Assembly (NCBI RefSeq): GCF_000688335.1
Contig: NZ_JHZX01000001.1
Location: 3,038,001-3,102,000, forward strand
Direction: 5' to 3'
Source of the DNA: Sediminibacter sp. Hel_I_10
GTDB lineage: Bacteria; Bacteroidota; Bacteroidia; Flavobacteriales; Flavobacteriaceae
DNA: 64,000 nucleotides
A model generated the notes under the pieces. It worked only from the letters and a program-made list of their open reading frames with translations, did no database searches and was not told the origin of the DNA. Below are positions 26,178 to 29,961 of the stretch, piece by piece; position 1 is the stretch's first letter; each line of letters opens with the position of its first letter. The position numbers and the translations under genes were made by a program.

Positions 26178-28355
26178 ATGAAAACAAAAAACGCATCCGG
26201 AGTAGGAAACGCCATCAATAGAGTAGAAGGTCAGCTTAAAGTAACAGGCCAGGCGACTTATGCTTCCGAATTTCAAATAGAAAACAAAGTTTACGGTCAA
26301 GGGATTAATAGCACGATTGCTAAGGGCGAAATCATTGCGATAGATACTTCCGAAGCAGAACAGTTGAAAGGTGTCCTCAAAATCATTACCTATAAAAATG
26401 CCGAGAAATTAAAAGGGTTTGATGAAGAACGGCCCGCATTGGCCACCGATAGTATTGCGCCAGTATTACAAAGCAACAAAGTGCATTACTATGGGGAATA
26501 TGTTGGTTTTGTGGTTGCTGAAACCTTTGAACAAGCACAATATGCGGCCTCTTTGGTTAAATTTAAGTATAAGGAAGATCCTAAGGCGGTGATCAATTTT
26601 GAAACATCGAAATCCAAAGCCTATAAACCGGGCAAAGACTCTGATTATAAACGAGGCGATTTTAAAAAAGGCCTATCGCAAGCTGATACTGTGATAGAAC
26701 ACACCTATCATACGCCCATTGAACACCACCACCCGATGGAACTTCATGCTACCATCGCCAGTTGGAACAATGGCAAAGTACTGGCCTACGCGAGTCAGCA
26801 AATTGTGGAAGATGCCGCCATTGCCATTTCAGGAACTTTTTTGATCCCGAAAAAGGATGTACGTGTGGTGGCTCATTATGTGGGTGGCGGTTTTGGTTCT
26901 AAATTGAATTTAGAGCGTCACGTCATCATGGCGGTCATGGCCTCAAAAATGGTTGGCAGACCTGTACAAGCAACAGTCACGCGTACTCAAATGTTTACCA
27001 ATACAGGTATGCGCCAAGCCAATAAGCAAACCGTACAACTGGGTGCTAAAACCAATGGAGAGCTCACCGCATTGTCTCATGATATTTTATCGCATACCTC
27101 CACCACGCAGGAGTTTCAAGAACCGTGTGGCTCTATGTCTAAAATGATGTATAAGGTTGCCAATGCCAAGATCTCAGAGCGCTTGATCCCTATGAATTTA
27201 CAGCAACCCTTTTCTATGAGAGCCCCAGGGGAGGCGACAGGCAGTTTTGCTTTGGAATCTGCCATGGATGAATTGGCGTGGAAACTCGATATGGACCCCA
27301 TTACCTTTCGGATCAAAAACGATACACAGGAGGATCTGAGCCAAGAAAAACCCTTCTCGTCACGATTGTTGGTAGAATGCCTGAACATTGGTGCTAAGAA
27401 ATTTGGTTGGGACCAACGCAAAATGAAACCGAGAGCACGTAAAAAAGGCAACTGGCTTATTGGCTACGGGGTGAGTGCAGCTGCTAGAGCCGCTCCTTAT
27501 AAAGAGACCCACGCCAAAGTGAAATTGCAATTAGAGAACAATACCGTAACGGCCACTTTACAGATGGATGCCACCGATATTGGGACGGGCAGCTATACCA
27601 TATTAGCACAAACCGTATCAGAATATCTCAACATCCCAGTAGCGCAAGTGGTGGTAGAACTAGGAGATTCAGATTATCCTATCACGCCAGGCTCTGGAGG
27701 CTCTTGGGGTGCTGCGTCTTATTGCAATGGCGCACGGTCTGCCTGTGAAAATGCGGTAAAGACCCTCAAGAAAAATCGCAACATCGGCAAAGATGAAACT
27801 ATTGAAATTTCAGAATTATTAAAGAAAAACCAGCTCACGGCTTTTGAAGCGGAAGGCTTGGCAAAACCCTCGTCCGAATTTGAGAAGCATTCCGTATTTT
27901 CATTTGGGGCCAATTTTACAGAGGTCTGGGTAGATCAAGATACTGGCATGTACAAAATTAAGCGCATGCTCAACGTGGGCGCAGCAGGTAAAATCTTAAA
28001 CCCTAAAACGGCTTACGGACAAGTGATTGGAGGTCTCACCATGGGTGCCGGTATGGTCATTGCCGAACAAACCCGAGTAGAACCTAATTTCGGTAATTTT
28101 ATTACCCGCTCTTTTGCCGATTACCACGTGCCCGTTAATTTGGATCTGGCCAATATTGATGTGGTCTTTTTACCAGAAGAAGATAAAATTGCCAATAAAA
28201 TGGGGGTTAAGGGCATTGGCGAACTAGGCATTACCAGTGTAGCCGCATCTATTGCCAACGCTATTTTTAATGCCACAGGAAAACGCATGCGCGATTTACC
28301 GATTACCCCAGAAAAGTTATTGATGGCCGAGGTGGAAGATGGGGTTGAGGTTTAA
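26178..28355 (+). CDS. paoC: Molybdopterin-binding catalytic subunit (PaoC/XdhA-like aldehyde oxidoreductase)
   Basis: A 725-residue large subunit of the xanthine-oxidase family, which binds molybdopterin (probably as the cytosine dinucleotide) and hydroxylates aldehydes or heterocycles. Signature stretches include GGGFGSK, MRAPGEATGSFALE, SGGSWGAAS and the C-terminal GVKGIGELG, whose Glu is the likely catalytic base. The last 344 bp, including that Glu, are repeated at 29618-29961 after the inserted mobile cassette, so the present 3' end may have been supplied by the cassette. Physiological substrate unknown. Confidence 0.92.
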   Translation: MKTKNASGVGNAINRVEGQLKVTGQATYASEFQIENKVYGQGINSTIAKGEIIAIDTSEAEQLKGVLKIITYKNAEKLKGFDEERPALATDSIAPVLQSNKVHYYGEYVGFVVAETFEQAQYAASLVKFKYKEDPKAVINFETSKSKAYKPGKDSDYKRGDFKKGLSQADTVIEHTYHTPIEHHHPMELHATIASWNNGKVLAYASQQIVEDAAIAISGTFLIPKKDVRVVAHYVGGGFGSKLNLERHVIMAVMASKMVGRPVQATVTRTQMFTNTGMRQANKQTVQLGAKTNGELTALSHDILSHTSTTQEFQEPCGSMSKMMYKVANAKISERLIPMNLQQPFSMRAPGEATGSFALESAMDELAWKLDMDPITFRIKNDTQEDLSQEKPFSSRLLVECLNIGAKKFGWDQRKMKPRARKKGNWLIGYGVSAAARAAPYKETHAKVKLQLENNTVTATLQMDATDIGTGSYTILAQTVSEYLNIPVAQVVVELGDSDYPITPGSGGSWGAASYCNGARSACENAVKTLKKNRNIGKDETIEISELLKKNQLTAFEAEGLAKPSSEFEKHSVFSFGANFTEVWVDQDTGMYKIKRMLNVGAAGKILNPKTAYGQVIGGLTMGAGMVIAEQTRVEPNFGNFITRSFADYHVPVNLDLANIDVVFLPEEDKIANKMGVKGIGELGITSVAASIANAIFNATGKRMRDLPITPEKLLMAEVEDGVEV
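28012..28355 (+). repeat. Left copy of 344-bp direct repeat (3' end of paoC)
   Basis: This segment aligns without gaps to 29618-29961 at a constant offset of 1606 bp. I count about 10 mismatches (roughly 97% identity), with three amino-acid changes. Similarity stops right at the TAA stop codon. The repeats bound the mobile mystery A/B cassette. Confidence 0.9.
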
Positions 28356-28464
28356 GGATTGCTAACAGAAACCTTTTCGATTTTAGTCACTAAAATTAAA
28401 AGTGAATAAGATAAAAGCGAATAGGTTGTAATTGTATTGTAGATAAAATGTAAAGCATAACAAT

Positions 28465-28492
28465 AAAAAGTCAGGGTATAGCCTGACTTTTT
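28465..28492 (+). terminator. Hairpin terminator after paoC, also first of three phased palindromes
   Basis: AAAAAGTCAGG and CCTGACTTTTT form an 11-bp stem with a 6-nt loop and a T-rich tail. Its core AGGGTATAGCCT is also the first of three related palindromes with centres 33 bp apart, so it may double as a binding site. Confidence 0.7.
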
Positions 28493-28501
28493 ATTTGTTT
28501 T

Positions 28502-28554
28502 TGTAAGGCTATAGCCTTACATTTGTGGTTTATTAGTCAGGCTATAACCTTACA
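28502..28554. promoter_or_regulatory. Tandem palindromic operators upstream of mobile mystery protein A
   Basis: A perfect 20-bp palindrome (TGTAAGGCTATAGCCTTACA, 28502-28521) is followed by an imperfect copy (28536-28554, core AGGCTATAACCT) ending just before the ATG at 28557. Together with the core at 28473-28484, the three centres (28478.5, 28511.5, 28544.5) are spaced exactly 33 bp apart, about three helical turns. They are probably binding sites for the XRE-type protein encoded next. Confidence 0.65.
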
Positions 28555-28556
28555 TT

Positions 28557-29015
28557 ATGAATCGAAAGAAATTACAACTAGAACAATTAAGCCGAAAACA
28601 GAACGGTTTTTCTGCTGCTGTAAACGTTGCGCTGCCACCTACTGGATGGCTTAAAGCCGTACGAACCTCTTTGGGAATGTCTTTACAGCAATTAGCGGAT
28701 AAATTATCTATTACAAGACAAAGTGTTCAGGAAATAGAAAAAAGAGAAAAGGAAGGTCAAATTACCCTCAATAATCTTAAGGAAGCTGCTAATGCATTAG
28801 ATATGCAATTGGTTTATGGTCTGGTTCCCAAAGATGGCACATTAGAAGATTTGATTGATCGTAAAGCCAAGGAGCTTGCTGTTCGTATCGTATCTAGAAC
28901 ATCAAATAATATGAAACTCGAAGATCAGGAAAACTCTAAGCAACGTATCAAAAAGGCTATTGAAGACCGCACAGCCATCATTAAAGATGAATTTCCAAAA
29001 ATGCTATGGGATTAG
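28557..29015 (+). CDS. Mobile mystery protein A (XRE-family DNA-binding protein)
   Basis: A 152-residue protein with a central helix-turn-helix of XRE type (about 40-60, GMSLQQLADKLSITRQSVQEIEKRE) and a basic N-terminus (MNRKKLQLEQLSRKQ). The whole sequence fits the family named mobile mystery protein A (TIGR02612), found with protein B in mobile contexts. Its gene overlaps that of protein B by 10 nt. The phased palindromes at the start codon point to autorepression, as for an antitoxin or regulator of the Fic partner. It lies inside the 344-bp repeats that interrupt the paoC region. Confidence 0.88.
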   Translation: MNRKKLQLEQLSRKQNGFSAAVNVALPPTGWLKAVRTSLGMSLQQLADKLSITRQSVQEIEKREKEGQITLNNLKEAANALDMQLVYGLVPKDGTLEDLIDRKAKELAVRIVSRTSNNMKLEDQENSKQRIKKAIEDRTAIIKDEFPKMLWD

Positions 29016-29605
29016 AGGATTTGGACTATATTGAAGGGCAAACGCCCATTGATGAAGAAGAAAAAGAGGGCCTAAAAATAGAAACGATTTCTACCAAAGC
29101 TGAATTGGATGAGTTTGAGCAACTCAATATTGAAGATGCTTTGCAATGGATTTTCAGTAAAAAGTTTAAACCCAAACACATATTTTCAGAAAAATTTGTA
29201 TGCGATTTGCATCAACGTATGTATGGCAATATTTGGGATTGGGCTGGACAATTTAGAAAGACCGATAAAAATATTGGTATTGATAAACATCAAATTTCTG
29301 TGCACCTTAAAGTGCTTTGTGACGACGCCCTATTTTGGGTAGAAAATAACACATATCCGCCCGATGAAATCGCCATCCGATTTAAACACCGTTTGGTAAG
29401 CATTCATTGTTTTGCAAATGGTAATGGCAGACATAGTAGAATAATGGCTGATATGATTATTGAAAAACTATTTGGTAAGAAGGCTTTTTCTTGGGGTATG
29501 AGTGATCTTTCAAATGCAGGTGATGCGCGATCTGCTTATCTTAACGCTGTAAAAAAAGCAGATTTAGAGGAATATCAAGCCTTATTAGATTTTGCAAGGT
29601 CTTAG
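29006..29605 (+). CDS. Mobile mystery protein B (Fic-domain protein)
   Basis: A 199-residue Fic/DOC-fold protein matching the mobile mystery protein B family (TIGR02613). The Fic loop HCFANGNGRHSR (134-145) is present with its catalytic His134 and both Arg residues, but the usual Asp/Glu Mg2+ ligand is Asn138, as I recall also for relatives in this family. A flap-like segment (GQFRKTDKNIGI, about 81-92) precedes it. Fic proteins transfer AMP or other phosphate groups to proteins; the target here is unknown. Translational coupling to protein A suggests a toxin-antitoxin-like pair. Confidence 0.88.
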   Translation: MGLEDLDYIEGQTPIDEEEKEGLKIETISTKAELDEFEQLNIEDALQWIFSKKFKPKHIFSEKFVCDLHQRMYGNIWDWAGQFRKTDKNIGIDKHQISVHLKVLCDDALFWVENNTYPPDEIAIRFKHRLVSIHCFANGNGRHSRIMADMIIEKLFGKKAFSWGMSDLSNAGDARSAYLNAVKKADLEEYQALLDFARS

Positions 29606-29617
29606 ATTCTAAATTGA

Positions 29618-29961
29618 CTTACGGAGAAGTGATTGGAGGTCTCACCATGGGTGCCGGCATGGTCATTGCCGAACAAACCCGAGTAGAACCTAATTTTGGG
29701 AATTTTATTACCCGCTCGTTTGCCGATTACCACGTGCCCGTTAATTTGGATCTGGCCAATATTGATGTGGTCTTTTTGCCAGAAGAAGATAAAATTGCCA
29801 ATAAAATGGGGATTAAGGGCATTGGCGAACTAGGCATTACCAGTGTAGCCGCATCTATTGCCAACGCTATTTTTAATGCCACAGGAAAACGCGTGCGCGA
29901 TTTACCGATTACCCCAGAAAAATTATTGATGGCTGAGGTGGAAGATGGGGTTGAGGTTTAA
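29618..29961 (+). pseudogene. paoC: Displaced paoC 3'-end fragment (right repeat copy)
   Basis: The fragment encodes the last 114 residues of the molybdo-subunit, from TYGEVIGGLTMGAG to VEDGVEV, including the catalytic GELG motif. It lacks every upstream domain and so cannot function alone, though the frame remains open. It starts 12 nt after the stop of the Fic gene. About 97% nucleotide identity to 28012-28355 with mostly synonymous changes suggests purifying selection in a related strain or a moderately old duplication. Confidence 0.88.

Follow-up and report, generated by a model that had tools for sequence, protein, structure and literature searches.

A paoC-like gene of Sediminibacter sp. 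Hel_I_10 is followed by a pair of mobile mystery genes, A and B, and the pair probably reached this site by one-sided homologous recombination together with a linked, foreign end of the paoC gene. The cassette formed by A and B lies in a 64,000-nucleotide stretch of contig NZ_JHZX01000001.1 (positions 3,038,001 to 3,102,000; hereafter, the window), with a long copy of the paoC 3′ end on either side, in direct orientation. An earlier note on this DNA had suggested that the element travels with part of the gene it targets, recombining with a related allele in such a way that the target remains functional. As a general mode of movement, this proposal is supported by the recurrence of such repeats elsewhere, by the synonymous bias of the differences between their copies, and by a locus at dus (L387) for which cassette-free relatives are available; for the window itself we infer it.

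A duplicated paoC end flanks the mobile mystery genes

The two repeats (Table 1) are 344 bp long, lie in the same orientation and differ at 10 positions (97.1% identity), confirming the earlier note's description of a repeat of about 97% identity that ends at the paoC stop codon and flanks an XRE/Fic gene pair. A shared TAA terminates both copies, with no resemblance downstream of it. BLAST extends the repeat to 362 bp (95.6% identity), and with an E-value of 2e-167 a chance origin is not an issue. The left copy completes the gene, whereas the right copy is an open frame of 115 codons without the paoC head. As the note had also observed, most of the differences are synonymous (7 of 10); the other three exchange Q/E, V/I and M/V, and the ratio of non-synonymous to synonymous differences per site (pN/pS) is 0.13. 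A and B are the sole credible genes between the copies. No recombinase-like open reading frame (ORF) was found there among ORFs of at least 70 codons and in family scans of A and B, in agreement with the note.

The 1950-bp interval is single-copy in the 4.1-Mb genome, its only other match being an internal 34-bp palindrome that pairs with its own opposite strand. Some of the comparison loci used below come from fragmented drafts, which could suggest an assembly artefact. The window, however, belongs to a single-contig genome, its copies differ at the 10 sites given above, and other genomes show the same arrangement, so that we regard an artefact as having next to no likelihood.

Flanking repeats recur at other mobile mystery A/B loci

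Among 397 genomes of the family, 37 had a mobile mystery B gene (mobB) over its cut-off; among 395 of the phylum, 54 had a match to mobile mystery A (mobA). A repeat was counted as hugging an A/B pair when its left copy ended no more than 450 bp before A, its right copy started no more than 200 bp after B, and it was at least 35 bp long with E <1e-3; ORF-bounded intervals of similar size from the same loci served as controls. The first set comprised 76 loci, reduced to 68 by dropping five without a B match and three at contig edges. The second set comprised 35 loci (29 class-level and six plasmid loci), reduced to 32 by dropping two without a B match and one at an edge.

Repeats hugged the pair at 9/68 loci of the first set, against 12/792 control intervals (Fisher p 1e-5), and at 7/32 loci of the second set, against 3/274 (Fisher p 7e-6); because the control intervals overlap one another, both p-values are rough. 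None of the second-set hits came from the six plasmid loci. Under a looser rule, 17 of 100 A/B loci were positive, as were 4 of 25 RelE-family control loci (one of 26 had been dropped as too short); by reading, one of the four RelE hits (L319) is the 3′ end of a gene. From the set counts and the RelE comparison, it follows that this footprint is real, that it occurs in a minority of loci, and that it is not special to mobile mystery A/B.

Repeats formed by the ends of neighbouring genes

The hits include nine, out of 16, that are ends of neighbouring genes. Besides paoC at the window locus, 3′ ends are repeated for a DUF454 gene (L210, 83 bp), dnaA (L380, 99 bp), mnmE (L371, 67 bp), a regulator-like gene (L383, 287 bp, both copies headless) and a radical-SAM gene (L073, 42 bp), and 5′ ends for dus (L387, inside a 154-bp repeat), a symporter gene (L369, 59 bp) and meaB (L057, inside 338 bp). 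At all of these except L383, the cassette separates the intact gene from a headless or tailless piece of it. The non-gene-end hits have attC-like or multi-copy repeat surroundings (L046, L053 and L064), are terminator-like (L051 and L368), are intergenic at a contig edge (L381), or lie, by eye, beside a CRISPR-like array (L204). The control repeats, 15 distinct ones, were judged by a crude ORF measure: 13 fall for the most part outside any ORF of at least 90 codons on both sides, whereas those at L074 and L077 are mostly inside such an ORF on one side.

At L383, the 287-bp repeat (582-868 and 2110-2396 of the oriented locus) holds A/B operator palindromes in addition to the regulator-like 3′ end, as if a new A/B pair had been inserted ahead of the remains of an older one. 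The mnmE gene is a known target of integrative elements; A/B comes directly after it in L371 and after an mnmE-looking gene in L044, and at L408 (G884:C13) another ectopic mnmE 3′-end piece was seen near a gene resembling the right-hand neighbour of the L371 pair.

Differences between gene end and fragment

Nine coding pairs of gene end and fragment (pN/pS 0.00-0.39) together contain 41 non-synonymous and 81 synonymous differences; L383, which has no intact copy, and L072, with several ssb fragments, were left unscored. The non-synonymous share is 34%, compared with about 61% expected (binomial p 9e-10, or 8e-7 without L192), the expectation being not a fitted value but our own assumption, in which the fragment is neutral and the gene has a ratio of non-synonymous to synonymous substitution rates (dN/dS) of 0.1. 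The comparison suggests that the coding duplications resemble diverged functional alleles more than the products of a fresh local duplication.

This bias bears on insertion with long target duplication, a rival account by which the cassette would have duplicated 344 bp of the resident paoC, leaving two native copies that diverged later. Its outline matches published restriction-modification cases, as described in excerpts of PMC3874152 and PMC3031569, and the right copy in the window is altered at conserved sites in a decay-like manner: among 35 paoC relatives, the left state is kept by all 35 where the right copy has the derived change Q to E, and by 30 where it has M to V. A pooled 41 non-synonymous changes in 122 is nevertheless too synonymous for the neutral decay of one copy, and in view of this and of the L387 and L192 loci described below we consider the account unlikely. 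The left copy of the window has one probable derived change of its own (25/35 relatives share the right state), and the synonymous sites are split between the copies. No empty paoC site was found in the genus, in which 5/23 genomes matched, including the window's own, and the best other paoC has 71% DNA identity.

Two further loci of the window's genus, L008 (G008) and L009 (G022), contain mobB-like DNA at 70% and 67%, respectively. The 3.5 kb of L008 have no direct repeat of at least 35 bp, and L009 has one 42-bp direct repeat, which does not hug the A/B unit.

Loci with and without the cassette

At the L387 position, two sister genomes of the same genus (L413 and L414) have the right-hand gene, a single segment of about 153 bp and an unbroken dus, with no cassette. 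The L387 fragment is 90.9% and 90.3% identical to the sisters, and the functional gene end 85.6% and 87.0%. At the 11 columns where the L387 copies differ, the fragment matches both sisters at seven and the gene end at none, with four undecided. Because the displaced fragment is thus the more native-like copy, dus at L387 appears to have received a foreign end and to have had its own end displaced, which speaks against long target duplication. The state of both sisters, single-copy and cassette-free, also bears on the idea that the paoC end was already duplicated in tandem before A/B was inserted between the copies. Such a history would produce the same map, and the window copies are not polarisable, but it would have to involve two separate events per locus, at many unrelated loci; together with the sisters of L387, this makes it highly improbable.

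Polarisation by an empty site comes from this one locus. L210 was considered as a second before-and-after case and was dropped, the right flank being rearranged in the sister genome. The relatives found for dnaA (L380) and mnmE (L371) were too distant to serve for polarisation.

L192, from genus g282 of the same phylum (which we take to be Chlorobium-like), contains two copies of a methyltransferase gene with a Thump_like domain, side by side, and A/B lies within the second. The two copies are 90.8% identical, and copy 1 is 92.6% identical to the gene of another species, with which both L192 copies cluster in a tree; copies that differ about as much as species do speak against long target duplication. 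In G617 (L302), the same A/B pair, with B shortened, has pieces of the methyltransferase gene on both sides and is located on a different contig from the intact gene, with other genes to its left. This carriage of methyltransferase-gene pieces away from the intact gene, in another genus, adds to the support for the proposed mode of movement.

Five sister genomes (L288-L292) have an empty junction. At ten loci (L276-L285), other genes occupy the ppx-like/methyltransferase junction, with up to three cassettes in a row; from our reading of the translations, these include ATPases, AbiE-like genes and RHH/ParE-like pairs, and they are bounded by duplicated ppx or methyltransferase ends of roughly 30-120 bp. 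The junction is in this sense a hot spot for different cassettes. At L295, L297, L298 and L299, a RelE-like pair (by reading) has next to it an ectopic stretch of roughly 200-300 bp from the methyltransferase 3′ end.

attC-like boundaries in a second clade

Many A/B pairs of clade 2 (Flavobacteriaceae) are, by eye, bounded by attC-like sequences with matching R'' and R' motifs: A is preceded by GTTGGC(T/A), or by something close to it, and the B stop is directly followed by a complementary GCCAAC-like sequence. Boundaries of this kind were seen by eye at L042, L045, L050, L053, L055, L059, L063, L064, L077 and L078, and several clade-2 pairs sit in repeat-separated arrays. None was seen by eye at the window unit. 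Of 24 genomes, none had a match to an integron integrase model above the model's cut-off, so that the clade-2 pairs are no more than candidate integron cassettes; weaker, generic matches to the model occurred in all 24 genomes and in all 14 control genomes.

Integrative elements that restore the end of their target gene are well known, and the clade-2 boundaries would suit either an integrase acting in trans, which uses the gene end as attachment site and supplies a replacement end, or insertion as an integron-type cassette. Beyond the two null results just given, the interval between the window copies has no recombinase-like ORF, targets and repeat lengths vary by locus, and 5′ and 3′ ends are both used. 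We therefore judge an integrase-based origin improbable.

Features of the window locus

The paoC-like gene matches NF041671 with 681.7 bits (E 1e-204), which is under the curated cut-off of 1180. A precedes B, their ORFs overlap by 10 bp, and both proteins exceed the curated NCBIfam cut-offs. The Fic motif H.F.[NDE][GA]N[GK]R is found in 96 of 104 B sequences and is partial or divergent in the other eight. By eye, the palindromes of the window follow the consensus GTMAGGxTATAxCCTKAC at a spacing of 33 bp, and a comparable series precedes A in six clade-1 relatives. Judging from the family matches and these operator-like palindromes, A/B is a putative toxin-antitoxin-like pair. The window's B protein also matches the PADLOC candidate defence model PDC-S04 (E 5e-21). 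No match to mobile mystery B was found in the phage collection.

Table 1. Features of the paoC and mobile mystery A/B locus (positions in the window)
Feature	Position	Strand	Basis
paoC-like aldehyde oxidoreductase molybdenum-binding subunit gene, complete	26178..28355	+	ORF; last 344 bp form the left copy
Left copy of the paoC 3′ end, completing the gene	28012..28355	+	Alignment, 10/344 differences
Spacer, paoC stop to first palindrome	28356..28469	.	Direct reading; differs from the sequence past the right copy
Three operator-like palindromes upstream of mobile mystery A (28470-28487, 28503-28520, 28536-28553)	28470..28553	.	By eye
Mobile mystery protein A, XRE-type putative antitoxin/regulator	28557..29015	+	TIGR02612, 136 bits against a cut-off of 122.6; HTH_3
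Mobile mystery protein B, Fic-fold putative toxin, HCFANGNGR	29006..29605	+	TIGR02613, 249.8 bits against a cut-off of 124.4; Fic
Junction, mobile mystery B stop to right copy (12 bp)	29606..29617	.	
Right copy, headless paoC 3′-end fragment with the same stop codon	29618..29961	+	Alignment; PaoC profile positions 628-729 matched

Discussion

In the course of events that we favour, A/B, without a recombinase of its own, would have entered on a segment that also held the 3′ part of a related paoC allele, and homologous exchange within paoC would have linked the incoming 3′ end to the gene already present. The gene would stay whole because this exchange fuses the resident part with the incoming one. 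At the other end, the incoming DNA would have been joined, just past mobile mystery B and without long homology, inside the resident paoC, so that the resident 3′ end would be displaced as a headless fragment. A single crossover of a circularised donor and homology-facilitated illegitimate recombination are both conceivable routes, and they would leave an identical final structure. The identity of the donor, the form of its DNA, the order of the two joins and the path taken at the window belong to what we infer.

The structures at the window and at L387 are compatible with homology at one end and a putative non-homologous joint at the other. Several points weigh against this account. The window on its own offers three non-synonymous changes among 10 differences, and neither of its copies is identifiable as ancestral from the pattern of states, because the closest paoC relatives are only about 80% identical in protein. 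Among the seven informative columns at L387, one is coding and six are upstream of the coding part. With 92.9% identity, the L387 copies resemble each other more than either resembles the sisters, a closeness that counts in favour of long target duplication; any donor would therefore have been near, and a local duplication with a faster-changing gene copy could also account for the locus. The carried copy at L192 is still nearest to copy 1. The earlier note had looked to flanking duplications at other A/B loci as a test; 83 of the 100 loci show none under the looser rule, so that by this test many loci lack the repeat. Other toxin-antitoxin-like cassettes carry similar footprints, and several of the comparison genomes are drafts.

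One-sided acquisition with a linked gene end might extend further, and toxin-antitoxin cassettes in general might spread between species, free of recombinases, by carrying the end of an adjoining gene. The carried end would then supply the homology by which the cassette is directed, in a new host, to that same gene; the target would be kept intact, the displaced native fragment would be left behind, and the target would shift as the neighbour changes. We offer this extension tentatively, as a possibility somewhat short of an even chance.

If the account is correct, a family named for its unexplained mobility gains a concrete, testable mode of movement that depends on host recombination alone. 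The entry of tiny toxin-antitoxin units into genomes in the absence of transposases, and next to important genes such as dnaA or mnmE that remain unbroken, would then be explained, and the headless or tailless fragments could reveal direction and donor from genomes.

The window pair agrees with the mobile mystery families TIGR02612 and TIGR02613 in that both proteins score above the cut-offs and A lies upstream of and overlaps B. The descriptions of these families state, to our knowledge, no mode of movement, and the gene-end footprint is an addition to them. Many clade-2 pairs resemble integron and CALIN (cluster of attC sites lacking integron integrases) gene cassettes in their attC-like boundaries; the window unit differs, with none seen by eye and with repeats that consist of a coding gene end.

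Related modes of movement have already been published; among papers found on toxin-antitoxin insertions with duplications, none on mobile mystery was seen, judging by titles and opening abstract lines. For a background rate, excerpts of PMC2884548 give 10-18% of variable segments in three species as flanked by direct repeats, of which, however, 66-94% are shorter than 30 bp. Long target duplication of restriction-modification genes (Nobusato 2000; Furuta 2010), in the form in which passages of PMC3874152 and PMC3031569 relate it, likewise involves a selfish, addiction-type unit with no linked recombinase and long, variable direct repeats on the order of 100 bp. Long direct repeats of the target flank the unit in the window (344 bp, 97.1%), for which no close relative was found; an empty single-copy site in a relative is seen at L387. 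Here, however, the repeats have the look of a gene end in two diverged allelic forms, of which the cassette brought one, and not that of a duplicated native target. In other systems, one end is joined by homology and the other non-homologously, with partial gene duplications. According to passages of PMC3240628, partial lacZ duplications arose in 56 of 60 Escherichia coli clones and measured 109-950 bp in the 14 that were sequenced, and single crossovers of a circular molecule were given as their cause. For type VI secretion system modules, passages of PMC5361080 describe a model of homology-facilitated illegitimate recombination. Those reports concern laboratory events or effector-immunity modules, whereas the present case concerns a toxin-antitoxin-like family whose footprint is repeated at unrelated genes.

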